Both the position numbers and the translations under genes were made by a program. The notes beneath the pieces were generated by a model that was not told where the DNA came from, did no database searches, and saw nothing but the letters and a program-made list of their open reading frames with translations. This document shows, in pieces, positions 3,065-42,435 of a stretch of 43,294 bases of DNA; the stretch's first letter is position 1, and each line of letters starts with the position of its first letter. Source of the DNA: an uncultured Craurococcus sp. (lineage in GTDB: Bacteria; Pseudomonadota; Alphaproteobacteria; Acetobacterales; Acetobacteraceae); NCBI GenBank assembly GCA_902805545.1, contig CADCTD010000161.1, positions 1 to 43,294 on the forward strand. The letters run 5' to 3'.

Positions 3065-4210
3065 ATGACCGAGGGGGATGGCCGGTTCCGGCTGGGGCGG
3101 CGCGGGCTGATCGCCGGCGCCGCTGGATTGATAATACCCGGCCTCGCCGAGGCCGCAGCGCCGCAGGCGCGGCTCAGCGTGGCGCAGGGCGAAACGCGGC
3201 TCACCGTGCCGATCGGGCCGGGCATCGCCTGGCGGGTCTCCGCCACGCTGCGGCCGGCGCGGCTGGTGGTCGAGCTGCCGAACCAGCGCTGGCGCGGCCC
3301 GGACCGGCTGCCGGGCGCCGGCATCGTAGCCGAGGCGCGGCGCGAGGGCAGCGGCGGCACGCAGACCCTGATCCTGGCCCTCGCCGGGCCGGTGGCGGCG
3401 CCGCAGGTGGCGGCGGCGCGCGGCCAGCTCGTCATCCGGCTGCGGCCGGGGCCGGCGGAGGGCTTCGCCCGGCTCGCCCATGGAAGGCCGCTCGCCGCCG
3501 CCGCCCTGCCGCCGCGCGGCACCCTGCCGCTGGTGATGCTCGATGCCGGGCATGGCGGGCGGGACCCGGGGACCATCGGCAGCCAGGGCACCCATGAGAA
3601 GCGCATCACCCTCGCCGCGGCGCTCGAGCTCAAGCGGCAGCTGGAGGCCGGCGGACGCTGCCGCGTGGCGCTGACCCGCGGGCGTGACGTCTTCATCCCG
3701 CTCGGCAGCCGGGTGGAGATGGCGCGCCGGCGGGAGGCGGCGCTCTTCCTCTCGCTGCATGCCGACAGCGCGCCGGGGGCGCGGGGGGCGAGCGTCTACA
3801 CCCTCTCCGAGACCGCGACGGACAGCTTGGCGGCCAGCCTCGCCCGGCGGGAGAACCAGGCGGACCGCAATGGCGGCCTCCGCCTGCCCAGCGTCCCGCC
3901 CGAGGTGCAGCGCATCCTGCTCAGCCTGATCCGGCAGGAGACGCGCGCAGGCTCGGAGCGGATGGCCCGGCTGGTGGTCGATTCGCTCGAGGACCGGGTG
4001 GCGCTGCTGCCGAACGCCCACCGGCGGGCCGGCTTCGTCGTGCTGAAGGCGCCCGACGTGCCGGCGGCGCTGGTGGAGATGGGCTTCCTCTCCAACCCGC
4101 AGGACGAGGCGGCGCTGAACCGGGCGAGCCACCGGGCCAAGGTCGCCTCGGCGCTGGCGGAGGCCATTCACGGCTTCATCGACGCGCCGGGCGCAATGGC
4201 GGCGGGCTGA
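3065..4210 (+). CDS. amiC: N-acetylmuramoyl-L-alanine amidase, AmiC type
   Basis: Periplasmic zinc amidase that cuts the bond between MurNAc and the stem peptide, mainly during septum splitting. 381 aa from ATG 3065; a GTG at 3056 is the alternative, but the G-run at 3049-3054 is better spaced from 3065. The N-terminus has a twin-arginine-like signal (GRRGLIAGAAG) followed by an Ala-rich stretch, consistent with Tat export as in E. coli AmiA and AmiC. An AMIN-like domain spans about residues 35-125 and Amidase_3 about 150-370. The expected zinc and catalytic residues are visible: His163 (DAGHGGRDPG), Glu178 (THEKR), His232 (SLHAD) and Glu338 (VEMGFLSN). It lies 96 bases upstream of mrcA on the same strand, so the two are probably co-transcribed. 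Confidence 0.93.
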   Translation: MTEGDGRFRLGRRGLIAGAAGLIIPGLAEAAAPQARLSVAQGETRLTVPIGPGIAWRVSATLRPARLVVELPNQRWRGPDRLPGAGIVAEARREGSGGTQTLILALAGPVAAPQVAAARGQLVIRLRPGPAEGFARLAHGRPLAAAALPPRGTLPLVMLDAGHGGRDPGTIGSQGTHEKRITLAAALELKRQLEAGGRCRVALTRGRDVFIPLGSRVEMARRREAALFLSLHADSAPGARGASVYTLSETATDSLAASLARRENQADRNGGLRLPSVPPEVQRILLSLIRQETRAGSERMARLVVDSLEDRVALLPNAHRRAGFVVLKAPDVPAALVEMGFLSNPQDEAALNRASHRAKVASALAEAIHGFIDAPGAMAAG

Positions 4211-4306
4211 CCCGGCCCGCACTTCTGCGTGGTGCCGGCGGGCCGGGGGCCTATATCTCGCCTGGTTGCGTGGCCGCCCGCTTCGCGACCCTGTATTGGG
4301 ACCGCC

Positions 4307-6844
4307 ATGTCGCCGCCTGATTACCGCCCCGAGCCCACCCTCGACATCGCGCCGCCGCCCCCGCCGCCGCGCGACCCGCCACCCCAGAAAAAGCGCCGGC
4401 GGCGGACACCCTTCCGCGGGGTCTTCGGCGGGCTGCTGATGCTGCTCGCCGTCGGGCTGGCGGGCGGGGCGGTGGCCGGCTACGGGCTCTACCGGCAGGT
4501 GGCGGCAGACCTGCCGGACTACCGCTGGCTGGCCGACTACCAGCCGCCGCAGATGTCGCGCATCTATGCCGCCGACAGCCGGCTGCTGGCCGAGCTGGCG
4601 ACGGAGCGGCGGATCTTCGTGCCCATCGAGGCGATCCCGCGCCAGCTCCAGGCGGCCTTCGTCAGCGCGGAGGACCAGCGCTTCTGGGAGCACCATGGCG
4701 TCGACCCGATCGGCATCCTGCGCTCGGTGCTGACGGCGGTCGAGAATTACGGCAGCGGGCGGCGGCTCGGCGGCGCCTCGACCATCACCCAGCAGGTGGC
4801 GAAGAACATGCTGGTCGGCGCCGACCGGACGCTGACGCGCAAGCTGCGCGAGGCGATCCTCGCCATCCGCATCGAGGAGACGCTGCCGAAGGACCGCATC
4901 CTCGAGCTGTACCTGAACGAGATCTTCCTCGGCTACCAGGCCTATGGCGTGGCGGCGGCGGCGCAGGCCTATTTCAACAAGGGGCTGGACGAGCTGACAC
5001 TCGGCGAGACCGCCTTCCTCGCCGTGCTCCCGAAGGCGCCGAACAACTACAACCCGATGCGCTTCCCCGAAGCCGCCAAGGCGCGGCGCGACTGGGTGCT
5101 GGACCGCATGGTCGAGGACCGCGCCGTCACCCCGGCGGAGGCGGCCGCAGCCAAGGCCGAGCCCATCGTCCCCCGCCCGGTGCGACGGCCGGAGGTGCTG
5201 CCGGTCGGCCAGTACTTCACCGAGGATGTGCGCCGCGAGCTCTCGACCCGCTTCGGGCCGGAGCAGACGACGATGGGCGGGCTCGTCGTCCGCACCAGCC
5301 TCGACCCGACGTTGCAGGCGGCGACCGAGGGCGCGCTGCGCAGCGGGCTGCTCGGCTATGACCGGCGCCGGGGTGGCTTCCGCGGGCCGGTGGCGAAGAT
5401 CCCGGCCAGCGCGACGGAGTGGCTGCCGGCGCTGGAGGCGGTGCAGCGGCCCGGCGGCGCCATGCCGGAGTGGAAGCTCGCCGTCGCCCTCGAGGTGAGG
5501 GACCGCGAGGCGCGGCTCGGCTGGCTCGAGCGGCCGGACCCGCGCGGGCCGGTGCAGCCGCGCAGCGGGACCATGCCGCTCGAGGAGGTGGGCTGGGCGC
5601 GGCGGGCGCTCGGCGAGGGGCGGCTCGGCCCCGCGCCGCGGCGGATGCAGGAGGTGCTGGCGCCGGGCGATGTCGTCCTGGTGGAGCAGCAGCCGGCGCA
5701 GGCGGCGCAGGGGCGGGCGCCGGCACGGCCGGAGCGGCTCTCGCTGCGGCAGATCCCGCAGGTGGAGGGCGCCATCGTGGCACTCGACCCGGCGACCGGG
5801 CGCGTGCTCGCCATGGCCGGCGGCTGGTCCTTCGACAAGAGCCAGTTCAACCGCGCAACCCAGGCGCAGCGGCAGCCTGGCTCCTCTTTCAAGCCCTTCG
5901 TCTATCTCCCGGCGCTGGAGGCGGGCATCCCGCCCACGCAGCGCTTCCTCGACGCGCCGATCGAGATCAACACGCCGCAGGGCGTCTGGCGGCCGGGGAA
6001 TTACGGCGACGGCGTCAGCAACAGCTACGTCTCCGTCCGCACCGCGCTCGAGAAGTCGCTGAACCTCGTCACCATCCGCGTGGCGCAGGAGGTCGGCATG
6101 GACCGCGTGGCGGAGACGGCGGCGCGCTTCGGCGTCATCCCCAACATGCCACGGTACCTCGCCATGTCGCTCGGCTCGGGCGAGACGACGGTGCTGCGGA
6201 TGGCGGCCGGCTATGCCGCCTTCGCCAATGGCGGGCGCGAGGTGACGCCGACGCTGATCGACAGCGTGCAGGACCAGCGCGGCCGGGTGATCTGGCGCAG
6301 CGACATGCGCGCCTGCGAGGCCTGCGCGGCGACCGACCCGCAGGCGGGGCCGCCGGAGCTGGTCGACAATCGCCGGCAGATCACCGACCCGATCGCGGCT
6401 TACCAGATGGTCAACCTGCTGGCCGGCGTCGTGCAGCGCGGCACGGGCACGGCAGCAGGCAAGGGCCTCAATCGGCCGATCGCTGGCAAGACCGGCACGA
6501 CGAACGACTATGTCGACAACTGGTTCGTCGGCTTCACGCCCGACATCGTCGTCGCCGTCTGGATGGGCTTCGACGAGCCGCGCAGCCTCGGCAATGGCGA
6601 GACGGGCGGCGGCAATGCGGCGCCGATCTTCCATGACGTGCTCGAGGCGGCGCTGCGCGGCAGCCCGGCCGTGCCCTTCCGCGCGCCGCCGGGCGTGGCG
6701 CTGGTGCGGGTGCAGGCGGATAACGGGCAAAGCCTCACCGAGGCCTTCCGGCCGGGGACGGAAAACGCCGCCCGGCCGCCGGGGGAGGACCCGGCGAGAG
6801 GGACGGCCGTGGGGCTGGACCGGGGGCTAGGCGGGCTGTACTAG
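4307..6844 (+). CDS. mrcA: Penicillin-binding protein 1A (bifunctional transglycosylase/transpeptidase)
   Basis: Class A PBP that polymerises and cross-links peptidoglycan. 845 aa from ATG 4307; the frame is open back to 4229, but that stretch lacks conservation and the ATG has GGGA upstream. A Pro-rich basic cytoplasmic tail (to about residue 35) leads into one membrane anchor at about residues 40-62. The GT51 transglycosylase follows, with catalytic Glu122 in SAEDQRFWEHHG, then GASTITQQVAKNM and a KLREAILAIRIE block. A linker/OB-like domain precedes the transpeptidase, which has Ser526-x-x-Lys529 (GSSFKPF), Ser584-Leu-Asn (SLN) and Lys728-Thr-Gly (AGKTGTTNDY). All hallmark motifs are intact. 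Its partner upstream is the amidase amiC. Confidence 0.96.
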   Translation: MSPPDYRPEPTLDIAPPPPPPRDPPPQKKRRRRTPFRGVFGGLLMLLAVGLAGGAVAGYGLYRQVAADLPDYRWLADYQPPQMSRIYAADSRLLAELATERRIFVPIEAIPRQLQAAFVSAEDQRFWEHHGVDPIGILRSVLTAVENYGSGRRLGGASTITQQVAKNMLVGADRTLTRKLREAILAIRIEETLPKDRILELYLNEIFLGYQAYGVAAAAQAYFNKGLDELTLGETAFLAVLPKAPNNYNPMRFPEAAKARRDWVLDRMVEDRAVTPAEAAAAKAEPIVPRPVRRPEVLPVGQYFTEDVRRELSTRFGPEQTTMGGLVVRTSLDPTLQAATEGALRSGLLGYDRRRGGFRGPVAKIPASATEWLPALEAVQRPGGAMPEWKLAVALEVRDREARLGWLERPDPRGPVQPRSGTMPLEEVGWARRALGEGRLGPAPRRMQEVLAPGDVVLVEQQPAQAAQGRAPARPERLSLRQIPQVEGAIVALDPATGRVLAMAGGWSFDKSQFNRATQAQRQPGSSFKPFVYLPALEAGIPPTQRFLDAPIEINTPQGVWRPGNYGDGVSNSYVSVRTALEKSLNLVTIRVAQEVGMDRVAETAARFGVIPNMPRYLAMSLGSGETTVLRMAAGYAAFANGGREVTPTLIDSVQDQRGRVIWRSDMRACEACAATDPQAGPPELVDNRRQITDPIAAYQMVNLLAGVVQRGTGTAAGKGLNRPIAGKTGTTNDYVDNWFVGFTPDIVVAVWMGFDEPRSLGNGETGGGNAAPIFHDVLEAALRGSPAVPFRAPPGVALVRVQADNGQSLTEAFRPGTENAARPPGEDPARGTAVGLDRGLGGLY

Positions 6845-31069: not shown

Positions 31070-31740
31070 CCGCCCGCCGTGCCGTCCTGCTGCTGCCGCT
31101 GCTCGCCGGATGCAGCGTCCTGCCCAACCGGCCCTACCAGGAGGCGCAGCGCTTCAGCCTGGCGCCGGAGCGCCCCGGCCGGGCCGCCGCGCCGCGCAAC
31201 GCGCCGGTGCTGCTGGTCCGCAGCCTCCGCGGCGCGCCGGGGCTCGAGGGGCGGGGGCTGAGGAGCCTCACCGCCGATGGCGAGGTCGTCACCGCCTACT
31301 GGCAGGAATGGGTCGCTCCCCCGGCCGATGCGGCGGAGGAGGCGCTGCGCCGCTGGCTGGCGGCGAGCGGCCGCTTCGCCGCCGTCACCCTGCCGGGCTC
31401 GCGCCTCCGTGCCGATCTCGTGCTGGAGGGCGAGCTGATCCGCCTGCAGGCCGAGCCCGCCGCCGGCCGCGCGACGGCCGCCCTTTCCGTGCTGCTGCTG
31501 TCCGAGCCGCAGATGGGCCCCGGCGAGGCCCGCATCCTCGCCCAGTTCACCGCCGAGGGAAATGCGCCGCTGTCATCCGGCCTCGACCCGCGCACGCCCG
31601 GGCCGGAGGCGGCCGCCGCGATCTCCGCCGCGCTCGGGGCGGCCTTCGCGCGGGTCGAGGAGCGGCTTGGCGGCGCTACGCCTCGCGCTCCAGCCGCTCC
31701 ACCTCGTCCGCCACCCGGCCGAAGGGCGCCGGCTTCGTGA
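31066..31740 (+). CDS. ABC-type transport auxiliary lipoprotein, PqiC/LptO-like
   Basis: Outer-membrane lipoprotein partner of the MCE system. 224 aa. Signal peptide with lipobox LLAGC, so the mature protein begins at Cys16. The PqiC-type fold is suggested by RFSLAPERP, PVLLVRSLRGAPGLEGRGL, VVTAYWQEWVAPPADAAEEALRRWLAASG, and LVLEGELIRLQ. The C-terminal 25 residues are Pro/Arg/Ala-rich and look non-conserved; their DNA overlaps the 3' end of the opposing response regulator gene by 65 bases. Last gene of the mlaEFD operon. Confidence 0.88.
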   Translation: MTARRAVLLLPLLAGCSVLPNRPYQEAQRFSLAPERPGRAAAPRNAPVLLVRSLRGAPGLEGRGLRSLTADGEVVTAYWQEWVAPPADAAEEALRRWLAASGRFAAVTLPGSRLRADLVLEGELIRLQAEPAAGRATAALSVLLLSEPQMGPGEARILAQFTAEGNAPLSSGLDPRTPGPEAAAAISAALGAAFARVEERLGGATPRAPAAPPRPPPGRRAPAS

Positions 31741-32074
31741 GGATGGCGATCGGGCCGCCGAGCGCCCGGAGCACCGCCGCCGTCTCCGGCAGGTGATTGG
31801 CCGACATCACCACCACCGGCAGCCCGGGCCGGTCCCGGCGCAGCCGCAGCACCAGCGCATCGCCGCGCATCCGCGGCATCTGCATGTCGGTGACCACGGC
31901 GTCGAACTTGCCGAGCTCCGCCTCCGCCCCCAGCGCCTCCAGCGCCGCCTGCCCGTCGCCGACGACGGTGACGCGATGACCGCGTTGCTGCAGCTCGAGC
32001 TCCACCGCCATGCCGATGAGGGCTTCGTCCTCCGCGACGAGGACATGGAGCGGCCGCTGCCCGGTACGGGTCAT
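31676..32074 (-). CDS. Single-domain response regulator (CheY-like receiver)
   Basis: 132 aa if ATG 32074 is used; an in-frame ATG at 32131 would add 19 unconserved residues. Neither has a good ribosome binding site. A lone receiver domain: acidic pair Glu15-Asp16 (VAEDE), phosphoacceptor Asp63 (VVTDMQMPRM), Ser in VVVMSAN, and Lys in LTKPAPF. No output domain, so it acts by protein contact or as a phosphate sink. It follows the HWE kinase gene on the same strand and is probably its partner. Its 3' end overlaps the converging lipoprotein gene by 65 bases. Confidence 0.9.
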   Translation of the reverse strand: MTRTGQRPLHVLVAEDEALIGMAVELELQQRGHRVTVVGDGQAALEALGAEAELGKFDAVVTDMQMPRMRGDALVLRLRRDRPGLPVVVMSANHLPETAAVLRALGGPIAILTKPAPFGRVADEVERLEREA

Positions 32075-32182
32075 CCAGTCGGGTTCCGGAACACTATGAG
32101 GTAGCCAGGATGGTTGCAGGGAGGAAGCCATAGCGGATGCGGGCGGTCCAAGGAAATTTCATGATGACCGTTCTGATTCGCT

Positions 32183-33226
32183 TCAGCTCGCGGGAAAGCG
32201 CATGGCCCAGCGCAGCCCCGGCCGGTTGGCGCCGGGGCTGGCCGGCGACGCCTCGAGGCTGCCGCCGAGCTGCCCGGCCAGCGCCCGGCTGATCCGGGTG
32301 CCGAGGCCGCTGCCCCTTGGCTTCGCCGCCATGTCGAAGCCGATGCCGTTATCCTCGACGAGCAGCAGGTAGTCCGGCTCGTCGAGGCGGAACTCGATCC
32401 GCACCCGCCCCTCCATCTCGCCGGGGAAGGCGTATTTCAGCGCGTTGGTGACCAGCTCGTTCACCGTCAGCCCGACCGGCACGGCGCGGGCCATGGGCAG
32501 CGGATGGTCCTCCGCCTGCACCATCAGGGCGATCGGGCGCATATCCACCGCCGCCTCGCGCAGGTCCTGCACCAGACCCTCGAGGAAGCCGCGGCTGTTG
32601 ACCACCGCCTCGCCATCGTCGCGGTGCCGGTCGAGCCGGGCATTGATGCGGGCCAGCGCCATGATGCGGCCGGAAGCGTCCTGCAGGGCCTGGCGGGCCT
32701 GCGCCTCCTCCATCGCCCCGGCCTGGAGGTGCAGCGTCGCCGCCAGCCGCTGCAGGTCGTTCCTCGCGCGGTGCACCGCCTCGCTCAGCAGGGTGCCCCG
32801 TGCCTCCGCCATCCGCCGCAGCTCGGCATTGGCGGTGGCGAGGCCCTGGCGCTCCTTCGCCAGCCGGTGCAGCGCGGTGTGGAGCGCCTCCATCAGGAAG
32901 GCGGTGAAGAGGGCGATGGCGGTGAAGATCAGCAGCGCCAGCAGGTCCGCCGCGCTGCCGAAGACGAAGGAGCCAGGCGGGTCGAACAGGAACAGGACGG
33001 CGAGCACGGCGCTGAGCAGCGCGGCGTAGATGCCGGTGCCGCGGTCGAAGACCAGGCCGGCCAGGATCACCGCCGGGAAGAAGAGCAGGAAGGGCAGCCC
33101 CGGCGCGCTGCCGAAGATCCAGAGCCGGAGGCCGAGGCAGGCGAGCACCACGAGGGTCGTCGCGCCGTAGCGCACCAGGACAGGCAGGCCGCGCGAGCGG
33201 GCCGAGAGCAGGAAGAGCCGTTCCAT
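32183..33226 (-). CDS. HWE/HisKA_2-type sensor histidine kinase with membrane sensor
   Basis: 347 aa from ATG 33226. Four hydrophobic helices in residues 15-115 form a DUF4118/KdpD-like membrane sensor (LRLWIFGSAPGLPFLLFFPAVI at its start). A short coiled coil leads to the HisKA_2 dimerisation box SEAVHRARNDLQRLAATLHLQA with His152 as phosphoacceptor. The ATPase part has VPVGLTVNELVTNALKYAFP, LLVEDNGIGFD and GSGLGTRIS. This kinase class is common in alphaproteobacteria and is often tied to general stress or light signalling. It is the first gene of a two-gene unit with the receiver protein downstream. Confidence 0.9.
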   Translation of the reverse strand: MERLFLLSARSRGLPVLVRYGATTLVVLACLGLRLWIFGSAPGLPFLLFFPAVILAGLVFDRGTGIYAALLSAVLAVLFLFDPPGSFVFGSAADLLALLIFTAIALFTAFLMEALHTALHRLAKERQGLATANAELRRMAEARGTLLSEAVHRARNDLQRLAATLHLQAGAMEEAQARQALQDASGRIMALARINARLDRHRDDGEAVVNSRGFLEGLVQDLREAAVDMRPIALMVQAEDHPLPMARAVPVGLTVNELVTNALKYAFPGEMEGRVRIEFRLDEPDYLLLVEDNGIGFDMAAKPRGSGLGTRISRALAGQLGGSLEASPASPGANRPGLRWAMRFPAS

Positions 33227-37031: not shown

Positions 37032-37061
37032 TTGACGGACGAACCCTCAAGTTGCTATCTG
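37032..37061 (+). promoter_or_regulatory. Candidate promoter of the LOV-EAL/kaiC/kaiB operon
   Basis: TTGACG (37032-37037, 5 of 6 to consensus), an 18-base spacer, and TATCTG (37056-37061, 3 of 6), inside the only AT-rich patch of the 274-base divergent gap. Transcription would start near 37068, about 60 bases before ATG 37128. The rest of the gap (36854-37030) is very GC-rich and shows nothing I can name. Confidence 0.4.
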
Positions 37062-37127: not shown

Positions 37128-38969
37128 ATGTGCCCTCCCCCGGTGCCGGCAACCGCGGATGAACCGCCGGACGACGGCCACCGATCCGCATCCCCGCATC
37201 CCGACAGGGTGCCCCGACATGATGTTGCGGGCGGGCCGGATGTCCGCAGCACCATGAACCTTCCCTTCGGCGGCGCGCTGCGCCATGCCAAGGCATCCGG
37301 CCTCGAACTCGCGCTGAACGAGCGCACGCTGGAGGGCTTCTCGGACGGCATCGCCATCGCCGACCTTGCCCTGCACGACCATCCGCTGGTCTATGTCAAC
37401 AGCGCCTTCGAGCGCATCAGCGGCTATCCGCGGGGCGAGCTGCTCGGCCGCAATTGCCGCTTCCTCCAGGGTGCGGAGCGCACCCAGCCAGGGGTCGCGG
37501 CCATGGCCACCGCCATCGCCGAGGGGCGCGACACCACCGTCGTCCTGCGCAACTACCGGCGCGACGGAACGCCCTTCTGGAACGAGCTGCGCCTCCGCCC
37601 GCTGCGCGACGCCGAGGGCCGCCTCACCCACTATCTCGCCAACATGCGGGACGTCACCGCCTTCCGCGACCTGAACGAGCGCCTGGCCCGTGCCGCCATC
37701 TTCGACGAGGTCACCGGCCTGCGCACCCGCCGCGGCTTCCTCGACCGGATGGCGCTGCTGGAGGCGGCGGACCGGCTGCTGATGCTCTGCTGCGATGTCG
37801 ACCAGCTGCGCGACGTCAACGCCACCTATGGGCGCCTGGCCGGCGACTCCCTGCTGCGCGAGCTCGGCCGGCGGTTGGAGGCGGCGCCCGGCCTCATCGT
37901 GGCGGGCCATCTCGGCGCCGGGCAACTCGCCGCCGCCCTGCACCGGCCGGCGCAGGTCGAGGCCGCCATCACCGCGCTGCATGACGCGCTGCGCCAGCCC
38001 TTCACCCTGCCGGGCGCCACCGTCTCCATCACCGTCACCCTCGGCTGGACCGAGGTCAGCTGGTCCGCCGCGCAGGGCGAGCCGCTGCTGATCGAGGCGG
38101 AGGCCGCGCTCTATGCCGCCAAGGCCGCCGGCCATGGCGAGCGCCGCGCCTTCGACCCGGCGGTGGAGCGCGAGGGCCGCCGGCGCCTGCGCATGACCGC
38201 CGAGCTGCGCGGCGCCCTGACCAACCGGGAATTCGTGCTGCACTACCAGCCGAAGGTGGAGCTCGCCACTGGCCGCATCATGGGGGTGGAGGCGCTGCTG
38301 CGCTGGCACAACCCGGTCTTCGGGCTGCAATCGCCCGACCGCTTCCTCCCCGTCGCCGAGCAGAGCGGGCTGGTCGTCGAGATCGGCGCCTGGGCCCTGG
38401 CCGAGGCCGTCCGCACCGCGGCCGAGCTGAACCGCCGCGGCCATGCCATCCAGGTCGCGGTCAATGTCTCGCCGGTGCAGATCCACCGCGACGACATCCC
38501 CGCGCTGCTCCGCCGCCTGCTGGCCGAGGCCGGGGCGGAGCCGGGCTGGATTGCGATCGAGCTGACCGAGACGGTGCTGGCCGACCGCACCGCCCGCACC
38601 CTCGCCTGCTTCCGGGCGCTGCGCGAGATGGGCATCGGCCTTGCGATGGATGATTTCGGCACCGGCTTCGCCTCGCTCGACCAGCTGCGCAGCCTGCCCT
38701 TCACCGAGGTGAAGCTCGACCGCAGCTTCGTCCGCAGCCTGGATGTCAACCCGGTGCAGGCGGCCATCGTCACCGGCACGCTCGGCGTCGCCCGCGCCCT
38801 CGGCATCAGCGCCACCTGCGAGGGCGTGGAGACGGAAGCGGAGCGGGAGCGGCTGATCGCGCTTGGCTGCCCGGTGGCGCAGGGCTACCTGTTCAGCCTG
38901 CCGCTCGCCAAGGAGGATCTGATCTGGCTGCTGGAGAAGCACGCGGTGCTGCCGGTGGCGGCGGAATGA
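37128..38969 (+). CDS. LOV-GGDEF(degenerate)-EAL protein, probable blue-light-controlled c-di-GMP phosphodiesterase
   Basis: 613 aa from ATG 37128, which has GGAG eight bases upstream; ATG 37254 is the alternative. LOV domain at about residues 65-180: the flavin-adduct Cys110 in GRNCRFLQG, Asn142 (NYRRDG) and Asn152 (FWNEL). The spacings Cys+32 and +10 equal those of plant phototropin LOV2 (C450, N482, N492). The residue at the place of the signalling Gln (Q513) is Met173. A GGDEF domain follows, but its active-site loop is Gly263-Ala-Gly-Gln-Leu267, so cyclase activity is unlikely. The EAL domain looks intact: Glu388-Ala-Leu (VEALLRW), VNVSPVQI, IELTETVL, DDFGTGFASL, KLDRSFV and CEGVETEAE. 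Its stop overlaps the kaiC-like start (ATGA), so light input, c-di-GMP hydrolysis and the KaiC-like switch are likely linked. Confidence 0.92.
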   Translation: MCPPPVPATADEPPDDGHRSASPHPDRVPRHDVAGGPDVRSTMNLPFGGALRHAKASGLELALNERTLEGFSDGIAIADLALHDHPLVYVNSAFERISGYPRGELLGRNCRFLQGAERTQPGVAAMATAIAEGRDTTVVLRNYRRDGTPFWNELRLRPLRDAEGRLTHYLANMRDVTAFRDLNERLARAAIFDEVTGLRTRRGFLDRMALLEAADRLLMLCCDVDQLRDVNATYGRLAGDSLLRELGRRLEAAPGLIVAGHLGAGQLAAALHRPAQVEAAITALHDALRQPFTLPGATVSITVTLGWTEVSWSAAQGEPLLIEAEAALYAAKAAGHGERRAFDPAVEREGRRRLRMTAELRGALTNREFVLHYQPKVELATGRIMGVEALLRWHNPVFGLQSPDRFLPVAEQSGLVVEIGAWALAEAVRTAAELNRRGHAIQVAVNVSPVQIHRDDIPALLRRLLAEAGAEPGWIAIELTETVLADRTARTLACFRALREMGIGLAMDDFGTGFASLDQLRSLPFTEVKLDRSFVRSLDVNPVQAAIVTGTLGVARALGISATCEGVETEAERERLIALGCPVAQGYLFSLPLAKEDLIWLLEKHAVLPVAAE

Positions 38970-40669
38970 CCGGCGCGCCCATGCCGCGCCTGCCGACGGG
39001 CATCGCCTGGCTCGACCGTCTGACCCATGGCGGCATCCCGGCCCGGCGGCTGACCGTGCTGCTCGGCCAGGCCGGGGCCGGCAAGACGCTGCTCTCCTGC
39101 CAGATCGCCGCCGCCCGCGCCCGGGTGGAGGGCGCCGGCACCGTCTTCGCCGCGCTGGAGGAGCCGCCGGCCGACATCATCCGCAATGCCGCCGGCTTCA
39201 CCTGGGACCTCGCAGCCCTGGCCGGGGAGCATTTCCACCCGCTCGACCTGCGGCCGGACCCGGACATGGTCTTCGCCGGGGATTTCGACCTGCGCGGCAT
39301 GCTCGCCACCCTCTCCGCCAAGGCGCGGCAGACCGGGGCGGGGCTCGTGGTGCTCGACGGGCTCGACACCGTGCTCGGCTGGCTCGCCAGCCCGGCCCGG
39401 CGCAGCGCGGAACTCGCCCGCATCGGCCGCTGGCTGGAGGAGGAGGGCCTCACCGCCATCGTCACCGCCAAGGCGGAGCGGCATGGCGGCCCGGCCGATG
39501 CCCTCGGCCCGCTCGAATTCGCCGTCTCGCTGGTGGTGGCGCTGGAGCGGCGGGAGGAGAGCGGCGGCACCCTCCGGGCGCTGCGCATCACCAAGTCCCG
39601 CGGCAGCGCGCACAGCAGCAGCGCCCACCCGCTGTTCTTCTCCCACAACGGGCTGGAGCCGCTGATGTGGCCCGGCGGCGATGCCCCGCCCGCCTCGCAG
39701 GAGCGCGTCGGCTCCGGCATGGCGCGGCTGGATGCGCTGCTCGGCGGCGGCTACCTGCGCGGCAGCACGGCGCTGCTCTCCGGCCCGCCCGGCACCGGCA
39801 AGTCGACCCTGGCGGCGCTCTTCGCCGCCTCCATCTGCGCCGGCGGCGGCCGCGCCGTGCATGTCGCCTTCGACGAGGGGCCGGAGCAGAGCATCCGAAA
39901 CATGCGCTCGGTCGGCATCGACCTCGCCGCCCATCGCGCCAGCGGCGCCCTCCGCCTGATCGGCCTGCAGCCGGGCCGCGACGGGCCCGAGCAGCTGCTC
40001 TCCGAGATCCTCGCCGCGGTCGAGACGCAGGATGCGACCGCCCTGGTGGTCGACCCCGTCTCATCGCTGATGCGCGGCGGCGTCGCCGATCTCGGCCAGT
40101 CCGCCGTCCGCCGCCTGGTGGAGGAGGCGCGCGCCCGCGGCATGACCGCGGTGCTCACCTCCCTCGTCGAGATCGGGGAGGACCCGGCCTCCGGCACGCT
40201 GAGCGCCGTCTCCACCATCGCCGATGCCTGGATCGCCCTCGGCTATGCCGAGCGGGGCGGCGAGCGCAACCGCACCCTCTCCATCGTCAAGGCGCGCGGC
40301 AGCGCCCATTCCAACCAGACGCGCGAGTTCGTCATGAGCAGTGAGGGCTGCACCCTGGCCGATGTCTACACCGCCGGCGGCGCCGTGCTGCTCGGCACCG
40401 CCCGGATGGAGCGGGAGGCGGAGGAGCGCCGCCTCGAAACCCTCGCCGCCCTCGACCACCAGCGCCGGCTGCGCGCGCTCGAGGCCCAGCTCACGGAGGC
40501 CGAGCTGCGCCAGCGCCGCTCCGCCCTCGAGTCCGAGGCGGCGCGCGCCGAGCTCGCCCTGCTCGAAGCCGCCGAGGCCGAGCGCCGCGCCGCCCAGGCC
40601 GAGCGCCAGGCCCGCACCGCCGCCAGCCGCTCGGCCGACACGCCGGCGGAGGAAGGAGCGTCGGCATGA
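38966..40669 (+). CDS. kaiC: KaiC-like double-domain ATPase
   Basis: 567 aa from ATG 38966 (ATG 38981 also possible). Two RecA-like domains as in cyanobacterial KaiC. CI: Walker A GQAGAGKT with Lys40, catalytic Glu65-Glu66 (ALEEPPADIIRNA), Walker B LVVLDGLD. CII: Walker A GPPGTGKST with Lys279, Asp303-Glu304 (AFDEGPEQSIRN) where KaiC has Glu-Glu, Walker B ALVVDPVSSLM. The phosphorylation region is preserved: Thr411, Ser416 and Thr417 (GTLSAVSTIADAW) align with T426, S431 and T432 of Synechococcus KaiC. After the KARGSAHSNQTREFVMS block the KaiA-binding tail is replaced by about 80 residues of Glu/Arg/Ala-rich coiled coil. Start and stop both overlap neighbours by ATGA. It is a KaiC-family switch working without KaiA. 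Confidence 0.93.
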   Translation: MTGAPMPRLPTGIAWLDRLTHGGIPARRLTVLLGQAGAGKTLLSCQIAAARARVEGAGTVFAALEEPPADIIRNAAGFTWDLAALAGEHFHPLDLRPDPDMVFAGDFDLRGMLATLSAKARQTGAGLVVLDGLDTVLGWLASPARRSAELARIGRWLEEEGLTAIVTAKAERHGGPADALGPLEFAVSLVVALERREESGGTLRALRITKSRGSAHSSSAHPLFFSHNGLEPLMWPGGDAPPASQERVGSGMARLDALLGGGYLRGSTALLSGPPGTGKSTLAALFAASICAGGGRAVHVAFDEGPEQSIRNMRSVGIDLAAHRASGALRLIGLQPGRDGPEQLLSEILAAVETQDATALVVDPVSSLMRGGVADLGQSAVRRLVEEARARGMTAVLTSLVEIGEDPASGTLSAVSTIADAWIALGYAERGGERNRTLSIVKARGSAHSNQTREFVMSSEGCTLADVYTAGGAVLLGTARMEREAEERRLETLAALDHQRRLRALEAQLTEAELRQRRSALESEAARAELALLEAAEAERRAAQAERQARTAASRSADTPAEEGASA

Positions 40670-40962
40670 GCGCGGCCGCCGTTGCGCTCTTCGTCGCCGG
40701 CGGCGCCCCGCGCTCCGCCGCCGCGCTCCGCAACCTCACCGCCGCCATCGCCGCCACCGGCCGGCCGGAGGGAACCTTCCGCGTCGAGGTGATCGACGTG
40801 CTGCGCGAGCCGGGCCGGGCGCTGGAAGCCGGGCTGCTGGCGACGCCGAGCCTCGCCCTCACCGCGCCGCATGGCCGCCGCCGCTGGTTCGTCGGCGAGT
40901 TCGACCAGCCGGAGCTGCTGGCCGGGTGGCTCGGCGACGTACTGGATGGCGAGCCCCCCTGA
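40666..40962 (+). CDS. kaiB: KaiB-like protein
   Basis: Thioredoxin-like/fold-switching partner of KaiC. 98 aa, the normal length. KaiB features: ALFVAGGAPRSAAALRNL at the start (KaiB has LYVAGNTPNSVRALKTL), VEVIDVLREPGRALEAGLLATPSLAL in the middle with the conserved LATPxLA, and RRRWFVGEFDQPELLAGWL at the end. It overlaps the kaiC-like stop by four bases. It should bind the CI domain of KaiC. Downstream, lutB has its own candidate promoter overlapping the kaiB stop. Confidence 0.9.
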   Translation: MSAAAVALFVAGGAPRSAAALRNLTAAIAATGRPEGTFRVEVIDVLREPGRALEAGLLATPSLALTAPHGRRRWFVGEFDQPELLAGWLGDVLDGEPP

Positions 40963-41010: not shown

Positions 41011-42435
41011 GTGGTCGCCATCACCTCGCCCGCCTTCAAGGAGAATGCCCGGACCGCGCTCGCGGACCCCGGCTTGCAGAAGGCGCTCGGCACGGCGAAG
41101 GGCGCCTTCCTCCAGCGCCGCGCCCAGGCCGTTGCCAACCTGCCGGAATTCGAGCAGCTCCGGGACATCGGCCGGAACATCAAGAACCACACCCTGGCCA
41201 ATCTCGACTTCTACCTCGAGGCCTATGAGGCCAAGGTGAAGGCGGCCGGCGGCCAGGTCCATTGGTGCTCCACCGCCGACGATGCCCGCGCCGCCGTGCT
41301 CGAGATCTGCCGCAAAGCCAATGCGCGCACCGTCACCAAGGGCAAGTCGATGATCTCCGAGGAGCTCGGGATCAACGCCCATCTCGAGGCCCATGGCATC
41401 CGCCCGGTCGAGACCGATCTCGGCGAGTACATCCTCCAGCTCCGCCAGGAGCATCCGAGCCACATCATCGCCCCCGCCTTCCACCTGAACCGCGAGGACT
41501 GGGAGGCCGATTTCCGCCGCCTGCACACCGACCTGCCGCCCGACCGCGTCTTCGCCGAGCGGCGCGACATCCTGGCCGAGGCCCGCACCAAGCTGCGGGA
41601 GAAATTCCTGGAGGCCGATGTCGGCATCACGGGCGCCAATTTCCTCATCGCCGAGACCGGCAGCAGCGTCATCGTCACCAACGAGGGCAATGGCGACCTG
41701 ACCCAGACCCTGCCGCGGGTCCATATCGCGCTCGCCAGCATCGAGAAGGTTGTGCCGACGCTCGAGGATGCGACGAGCCTGCTGCGCCTGCTCGCCCGCA
41801 GCGCGACGGGCCAGGACTTCTCGGTCTACACCACCTTCTCGACCGGTGCCCGCCGCCCCGCCGACCTTGACGGGCCGGAGGAGTACCATGTCGTCCTGAT
41901 CGACAACGGCCGCTCCAACATGCTCGGCACCGAGTTCCAGGAGATGCTGCGCTGCATCCGCTGCGCCGCCTGCATGAACCACTGCCCGGTCTACGGCGCG
42001 GTCGGCGGCCATGCCTATGGCTGGGTCTATCCCGGGCCGATGGGCTCCGTCCTCACCCCCTCCCTCGTCGGCATCGAGAAGACCGGCCTGCTGCCCAATG
42101 CGTCGACCTTCTGCGGCCGCTGCGAGAGCGTCTGCCCGGTGAAGATCCCGCTGCCGAAGATGATGCGCCACTGGCGCGAGCGGGAGTTCGAGCGCCACCT
42201 GACGCCGGCGACCCAGCGCGGCAACCTCGCCCTCTGGGCCTGGTTCGCCCGCCGTCCCGGCCTCTACCGGATGGCGACCCGCGCCGCGACCACGGCGCTC
42301 GGCCTGCTCGGCCGCGGCAAGGGCAGCTTCCGCTCCATGCCGCTCGCGGGCGGCTGGACCGCGGGGCGCGACCTCCCCGTGCCCGAGGGCGGCACCTTCA
42401 TGGCCCGATATGCGAAGGAGCAGCGCCGCCGATGA
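41011..42435 (+). CDS. lutB: Lactate utilization iron-sulfur protein LutB
   Basis: Iron-sulfur subunit of the LutABC L-lactate oxidation complex. 474 aa from GTG 41011, with AGGAG eight bases upstream. The first 290 residues are the LutB/LUD domain, with TKGKSMISEELGINAHLE near 110 and ADVGITGANFLIAETGS near 205. Two [4Fe-4S] motifs follow: Cys315, 318, 321, 325 (CIRCAACMNHCPVYG) and Cys368, 371, 375 (CGRCESVCPVKIP). The C-terminus is helical. The stop overlaps the lutC ATG by four bases. lutA, which normally precedes it, is not here; the upstream gene is kaiB. Confidence 0.95.
   Translation: MVAITSPAFKENARTALADPGLQKALGTAKGAFLQRRAQAVANLPEFEQLRDIGRNIKNHTLANLDFYLEAYEAKVKAAGGQVHWCSTADDARAAVLEICRKANARTVTKGKSMISEELGINAHLEAHGIRPVETDLGEYILQLRQEHPSHIIAPAFHLNREDWEADFRRLHTDLPPDRVFAERRDILAEARTKLREKFLEADVGITGANFLIAETGSSVIVTNEGNGDLTQTLPRVHIALASIEKVVPTLEDATSLLRLLARSATGQDFSVYTTFSTGARRPADLDGPEEYHVVLIDNGRSNMLGTEFQEMLRCIRCAACMNHCPVYGAVGGHAYGWVYPGPMGSVLTPSLVGIEKTGLLPNASTFCGRCESVCPVKIPLPKMMRHWREREFERHLTPATQRGNLALWAWFARRPGLYRMATRAATTALGLLGRGKGSFRSMPLAGGWTAGRDLPVPEGGTFMARYAKEQRRR

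Follow-up and report, generated by a model that had tools for sequence, protein, structure and literature searches.

The output of the circadian clock of S. elongatus runs via SasA-RpaA (PMC13001216), and outside the cyanobacteria a histidine kinase or a GGDEF/EAL protein lies directly downstream of kaiC or kaiB in almost all of the clustered kaiC-kaiB pairs reported in 2011 (PMC3164672). A kaiCB pair beside a GGDEF/EAL gene is thus a kind of locus that has been in print since 2011. Within a window of 43,294 nucleotides (the whole stretch of DNA analyzed, from contig CADCTD010000161.1 of an uncultured Craurococcus sp.), three genes of the forward strand make up such a locus: the gene of a protein with LOV, degenerate GGDEF and EAL domains (37254..38969; hereafter LOV-EAL), kaiC (38966..40669), which encodes two KaiC ATPase domains and a C-terminal 81-residue helix, and a single, divergent copy of kaiB (40666..40962). 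At somewhat less than even odds (a probability of about 0.45), we read these genes as a KaiA-independent KaiBC phospho-timer in which a phosphodiesterase of cyclic diguanylate (c-di-GMP) is the partner instead of the usual histidine kinase. As far as the open-access literature shows, the LOV version, the upstream overlapping partner and the clade of KaiC proteins described below, marked by an aspartate (the Asp-type clade), appear to be new.

The adjacency of an EAL gene and kaiCB recurs well outside the window. The survey consisted of sampled genomes and was centered on the window KaiC; with Belnapia collapsed to one lineage, and L083-L086 dropped as duplicates of L037, L040, L039 and L041, it gave 15 lineages of the Asp-type clade, 55 other KaiB-linked loci (those that were fetched, loci without KaiB or with a KaiC below 330 bits being excluded) and 75 kaiC loci overall. 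Genes on the same strand and within 600 bases were counted as lying beside the cluster. In the clade, seven lineages have an EAL neighbor (the window, L090, L165, L197, L199, L201 and L202), five have a histidine kinase and three have neither, whereas a kinase is present in 44 of the 55 other loci and an EAL gene in three, one of which (L172) is a fragment and lies beside a kinase too (EAL in 7/15 vs 3/55; Fisher p = 4.5e-4). Over all loci, an EAL open reading frame (ORF) stands beside the cluster in 10 of 75 (the L172 fragment included), against four among an estimated 511 other genes (bases/1000; Fisher p = 1.2e-4, the lineages being not fully independent). Histidine kinases are also found in the upstream slot, namely in L087 and L088. 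A second cluster with the order LOV-PAS-GGDEF-EAL, kaiC and kaiB exists in G251 (L090), which represents another genus of the family of Belnapia (Roseomonadaceae in the NCBI taxonomy).

The sensor domains of the EAL partners differ among lineages: LOV in Belnapia, LOV and PAS with a GGDEF motif in L090, PAS in L165 and L202, HAMP and PAS in L199 and L201, and PAS and GAF in L197. A scan with a single regular expression, which was applied to ORFs that had a domain match and which other LOV forms may escape, flagged the LOV motif in L090, in the kaiCB-less locus L185 and in the six Belnapia operons with their duplicates alone. So, because the sensors vary and the EAL domain recurs, the recurrent link is the one between KaiBC and the breakdown of c-di-GMP, with light as a lineage-specific addition. 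The idea that LOV is the conserved feature was rejected on the basis of this distribution. The original prediction, made from the letters of the stretch, had put direct light input at the heart of the system; in this form it was not supported, since PAS, HAMP-PAS and PAS-GAF replace LOV in related EAL partners, kinases take the neighboring slot elsewhere, and both the LOV domain of the window and a LOV-EAL gene without kaiCB (see below) argue against it.

In the EAL tree, the careful version of which was made without L240 (a misread frame) and L161 (a very long branch), the proteins of Belnapia, L090, L165, L199 and L201 split from the sampled EAL paralogues of Belnapia (support 97/96), and Belnapia joins L165/L199/L201 at 88/81. 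A shared, inherited module of EAL and KaiC is suggested by these sequences; the stronger statement, that the EAL and KaiC trees agree strongly, was lowered after the careful tree runs. Beyond the EAL neighbors counted, further GGDEF or GGDEF-EAL genes lie near the clade kaiC genes of another class (L165:8533-9450, L201:1566-4547, L198:9012-9477 and L203:8467-8908). In L161:884-5874 (G762), kaiC, kaiB, a hybrid kinase and Hpt are followed by a receiver-EAL response regulator, possibly another route from KaiBC to c-di-GMP.

The clade is marked in the second KaiC domain (CII), where the first catalytic glutamate is replaced by aspartate in all 20 clade rows, but in none of 52 R. sphaeroides-like rows and none of six others, in an alignment of the KaiC loci that score 330 bits or more. 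In the window KaiC, this residue is Asp303 (codon 39872..39874), which aligns with the first glutamate of the CII Glu-Glu pair of R. sphaeroides KaiC. A quick KaiC tree with outgroups (56 hand-picked of 80 loci) places 19 clade rows under one branch with a support of 100, and in a careful tree of 32 rows the clade is the side opposite a 100/100 branch. Its members come from the family of Belnapia, from further families within the same class and from a second class of the phylum. A single KaiB was counted beside kaiC in all 15 clade lineages, versus two in 31 of the 55 other KaiB-linked loci. Judged from its sequence, the window KaiC is a member of this divergent clade.

The closest matches of the locus are in five named Belnapia records, and the window is assigned to this genus. 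Within Belnapia, the order LOV-EAL, kaiC, kaiB is kept in six of eight sampled genomes, named strains being among the carriers, and the KaiC proteins of the six have identities of 76-100%. The ATGA overlap between kaiC and kaiB (40666..40669) is present in all six operons and that between LOV-EAL and kaiC (38966..38969) in five, L041 having a gap instead. Pairwise ratios of nonsynonymous to synonymous substitution (dN/dS) of the window versus L039, L040 and L041 are 0.32-0.39 for LOV-EAL, 0.25-0.34 for kaiC and 0.21-0.56 for kaiB; these lie above those of hisF and lutB, yet indicate purifying selection. Based on the retained order and this selection, the arrangement is not due to chance, and the conserved synteny on which the original prediction had been staked was found in Belnapia and in one other genus. 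However, the flanks are collinear too (hisF in all six Belnapia operons, lutB in five of six), so that synteny within the genus is by itself weak evidence of function, and the claim that it proves function was lowered. In G036, also a Belnapia genome, both this KaiC and a close LOV-EAL are missing. Two Belnapia genomes, G245 (L095:5753-9136) and G121 (L179), carry an additional, R. sphaeroides-like operon of kaiC, kaiB and an HWE kinase, and two KaiBC types thus coexist in them.

The first protein matches PAS_9, GGDEF and EAL in Pfam (227 bits for EAL). Its LOV (PAS_9) domain (37347..37661) keeps Cys68 in the GxNCRFLQ motif (GRNCRFLQ in the window; codon 37455-37457) and the flavin pair Asn100 and Asn110. 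The LOV domain that had been proposed is thus supported, and it is a predicted sensor of blue light. In six aligned Belnapia proteins (6 of 7; L038 was left out of the six-sequence EAL alignment and the table of LOV and GGDEF domains), the cysteine and its neighboring residues are invariant, and the identity of the LOV domain to that of the window is 0.67-0.85, versus 0.54-0.79 for the GGDEF domain. The latter (37695..38135), which lies between the LOV and EAL domains and had been overlooked in the original prediction, is degenerate: its motif is lost (HLGAGQ in the window), with LGAGQ, LVAGQ or LAAGQ in the six Belnapia proteins aligned. The EAL domain (38202..38903) was rightly called intact; the residues that are invariant across the six proteins include E346, N404, E436, E439, D466, D467, K487, E523 and Q543, numbered from the ATG at 37254. 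We take these positions, from E346 to Q543, to be the catalytic ones. The domain retains the motif and the presumed catalytic residues of c-di-GMP phosphodiesterases and is a predicted enzyme. When the LOV-EAL gene of L038 (Belnapia sp. F-4-1) is aligned, a one-base deletion appears near its start (approximately 4196-4385), and an in-frame ATG, GTG or TTG occurs first at 4385, inside the LOV domain.

KaiC matches PF06745 in two stretches (Pfam), with the Walker A motifs AGAGKT and PPGTGKS, and its first domain (CI) keeps the Glu-Glu pair. Two adjacent residues of the phosphorylation type, Ser416-Thr417 (40211..40216), align with the residues of R. sphaeroides KaiC that are phosphorylated in CII. 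This KaiC is the best solved relative by sequence (E-value = 4e-93) and, as the dodecameric structure 8fwi, the best fold match of the AlphaFold model (pLDDT, the model's confidence score, 83). One continuous terminal helix (residues 477-557; 40394..40636) is seen in the model; the corresponding helix of R. sphaeroides KaiC builds a coiled-coil dodecamer (PMC10076222). KaiB has a Pfam match of 36.3 bits (gathering cut-off 27), and its AlphaFold model (pLDDT 90, from a 12-row alignment) shows the thioredoxin-like topology of fold-switched, KaiC-binding KaiB, the top Foldseek matches being the fold-switched 5jyt and 5jwr and the KaiC-bound 8fwj. The pair of a two-domain KaiC and a KaiB was therefore correctly recognized from the letters alone. 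Both proteins fall below the NCBIfam equivalog cut-offs (KaiC, 378.5/408 bits for PRK09302 and 208/546 for TIGR02655; KaiB, 35.6/110 and 35.5/145 bits for circadian KaiB) and are thus divergent relatives of the circadian proteins. The genome of the window encodes a second, distant two-domain KaiC (L097:6095-9278, contig C90 of G000), which has no adjoining KaiB and is followed by a HisKA/HATPase/REC kinase; it resembles the second kaiC context of PMC3164672.

If the three genes form a timer of the proposed kind, KaiC would autophosphorylate on Ser416/Thr417 without KaiA, as R. sphaeroides KaiC does, and its C-terminal helix would form a coiled coil. The thioredoxin-like KaiB would bind the CI ring and, on a fall of the ATP/ADP ratio, drive KaiC towards the dephosphorylated state. 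We infer that the EAL protein touches KaiC physically and receives its signal from it; it would then be the output, with c-di-GMP hydrolysis set by the state of KaiC and KaiB. The output role is proposed because the EAL protein fills the slot that is taken by a kinase in relatives. Blue light would act on the same EAL enzyme via LOV in Belnapia and one other genus, so that the day/night energy state and light could converge on a single enzyme, which would set c-di-GMP and thereby motility versus biofilm. A recurrent phosphodiesterase in the kinase slot is a candidate KaiBC output that needs no phosphorelay, and, if EAL is the output, timing would be tied to the switch between biofilm and motility. 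Since this pairing of enzyme and clock is repeated in some related bacteria, timing and the control of lifestyle may be linked directly in them. A bolder generalization, which we put forward with considerable doubt, is that an Asp-type KaiC with one divergent KaiB is a timer writing directly into the c-di-GMP pool via a bound EAL phosphodiesterase, with no two-component step, and that this enzyme also reads blue light in the case of Belnapia and one other genus, clock state and light being integrated in one complex.

Several observations weigh against the timer with an EAL output. The CII domain of the window KaiC has Asp-Glu in place of Glu-Glu; the change is conservative, so that the likeness to the mechanism of R. 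sphaeroides KaiC is lowered slightly. In five clade KaiCs (L089, L160, L161, L196 and L197), the second catalytic residue of CII is replaced as well, by serine (Asp-Ser), so that the chemistry of CII may be altered or lost, and the KaiC of L202 is without the Ser-Thr pair. The grouping of Belnapia KaiC with L165/L199/L201/L203 has a support of 92 in the quick tree and of 76/25 in the careful one, and the KaiC of L090 is placed elsewhere in the clade. No same-strand EAL protein or kinase lies beside the cluster in L196, L198 and L203. The main EAL group does not take in the EAL neighbors of L202 (upstream) and of L197, L164 and L205 (downstream), by which the idea of a single module is weakened, and a grouping of the Belnapia LOV-EAL with its own paralogues is not firmly rejected (approximately unbiased test, p = 0.051).

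The same holds for the Belnapia genome G213, in which a LOV-EAL gene of 67-68% identity lies 3' of hisF (L185:5477-7318) with no kaiCB at the locus and no KaiB match genome-wide; the enzyme can thus do without KaiBC. On this basis, the genes of the window might share a promoter and do separate work, with KaiBC serving as an ATP/ADP switch on another target and LOV-EAL as a blue-light phosphodiesterase of the ordinary kind, and both the collinear flanks, which weaken the synteny within the genus, and the local commonness of ATGA overlaps fit such a view. However, the adjacency of EAL and kaiCB recurs across lineages above the background of the same stretches, and the EAL proteins of Belnapia, L090, L165, L199 and L201 stand apart from the Belnapia paralogues, so that we regard separate work as rather unlikely, though a serious competitor. 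G213 itself is apparently a natural case of kaiCB loss: the genes 3' of its LOV-EAL (SDR-like and FKBP-like, by eye) resemble those after kaiB in L041, and the EAL tree joins L041 with G213 as its sister (93/89), which makes loss the simplest reading. Belnapia with the operon and G213 with the same LOV-EAL gene but without kaiCB therefore offer a clean comparison.

The direction of the signal might also be the reverse, with LOV-EAL acting on the Kai pair as a resetting factor dependent on light and c-di-GMP. This would agree with the retention of the LOV cysteine in the six Belnapia proteins aligned (of seven), with the presence of the LOV-GGDEF-EAL phosphodiesterase SL2 in S. elongatus (PMC8846402) and with the lengthening of the circadian period of S. 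elongatus on induction of a c-di-GMP phosphodiesterase (PMC13001216). That lengthening, however, apparently does not come about by c-di-GMP acting on the Kai proteins directly. In vitro, neither KaiB-KaiC binding nor KaiC phosphorylation of S. elongatus was consistently changed by c-di-GMP itself (PMC13001216), which counts against a resetting factor and against the timer alike. As the EAL partner has different sensor domains from lineage to lineage while EAL recurs, and as kinases occupy the neighboring slot elsewhere, we consider an input role improbable. The part of the timer that concerns light is in turn weakened by the LOV domain itself. Met131 of the window stands where aligned solved LOV domains have glutamine on the last strand, the six aligned Belnapia sequences have Met, Thr or Ser there, and in L037 serine replaces the second flavin Asn. 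The domain could accordingly have taken on a redox or structural role as a PAS domain, leaving a protein that answers to the energy or redox state only, and the one-base deletion and late start of L038 are in line with this. Such a drift is unlikely, however, with the cysteine and its neighbors invariant in six proteins and the LOV domain more conserved than the GGDEF domain; moreover, LOV receptors without the glutamine are still able to signal (PMC9098866).

The three same-strand ORFs are joined by two ATGA overlaps just as the original prediction had it, and its gene boundaries stand except for the first start, at 37128, which is doubtful. The ATG at 37128 gives a longer frame and has GGAG shortly 5' (by eye), whereas the rival ATG at 37254 is matched by ATG or GTG in an alignment of L037, L039, L040 and L041. 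It had further been claimed that the overlaps fix the ratio of the proteins. This was rejected, because the neighboring genes lutB and lutC, adjoining the operon, overlap in the same way (42432-42435); ATGA overlaps are not rare in this stretch, and they support an operon but not a fixed ratio. A candidate promoter (TTGACG, 17 nt, CTATCT) lies at 37032..37060 on the forward strand, its TTGAC being kept in five of six aligned Belnapia sequences by eye; a consensus scan of the locus for promoters and terminators gave none above its threshold. Elsewhere in the window (31676-33226, reverse strand), a single-domain receiver beside a DUF4118-HisKA_2 kinase forms a separate two-component pair.

Among the known systems, the kai operon of Legionella pneumophila is also a case of kaiBC outside the cyanobacteria, and the window KaiB matches the KaiB of that operon (4kun) in structure; presumably the operon contains a GGDEF/EAL gene as well. 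The KaiBC system of R. sphaeroides (PDB 8dba, 8fwi and 8fwj; PMC10076222) works without KaiA and has the coiled-coil extension; its KaiC is the closest structure by both sequence and fold, and the window KaiB model resembles the KaiB of 8fwj. It differs in that the KaiC identity is about 36%, the CII pair is Glu-Glu there and Asp-Glu here, and the phosphorylation sites are Ser-Ser there and Ser-Thr here. In addition, the R. sphaeroides operon holds a PAS protein (PMC6627678), and the operon of the window an EAL partner. The clusters of PMC3164672 belong to the same class of neighborhood, with kaiCB beside a GGDEF/EAL protein; in these, however, the partner is downstream and PAS, PAC and GAF are the domains named, whereas the partner in the window is upstream, overlaps kaiC and has a LOV domain, a word with no match in the main text of that paper (figures aside). 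The original prediction had called the arrangement undescribed, and this is borne out for the LOV form only, kaiCB beside GGDEF/EAL having been reported in 2011. No description of a LOV-EAL/kaiC/kaiB operon was found in the open-access literature, which misses most subscription papers, nor of the Asp-type clade with its preference for EAL, although no search was aimed at the aspartate mark. The domain set of LOV-EAL is shared by SL2 of S. elongatus, a LOV-GGDEF-EAL protein, the phosphodiesterase of which is activated by blue light in vitro (PMC8846402, PMC13001216). The LOV domain of SL2, however, is called canonical, and SL2 is not described there within a kai operon, whereas the protein of the window has methionine in place of the LOV glutamine and a degenerate GGDEF motif, and is encoded together with KaiC and KaiB.

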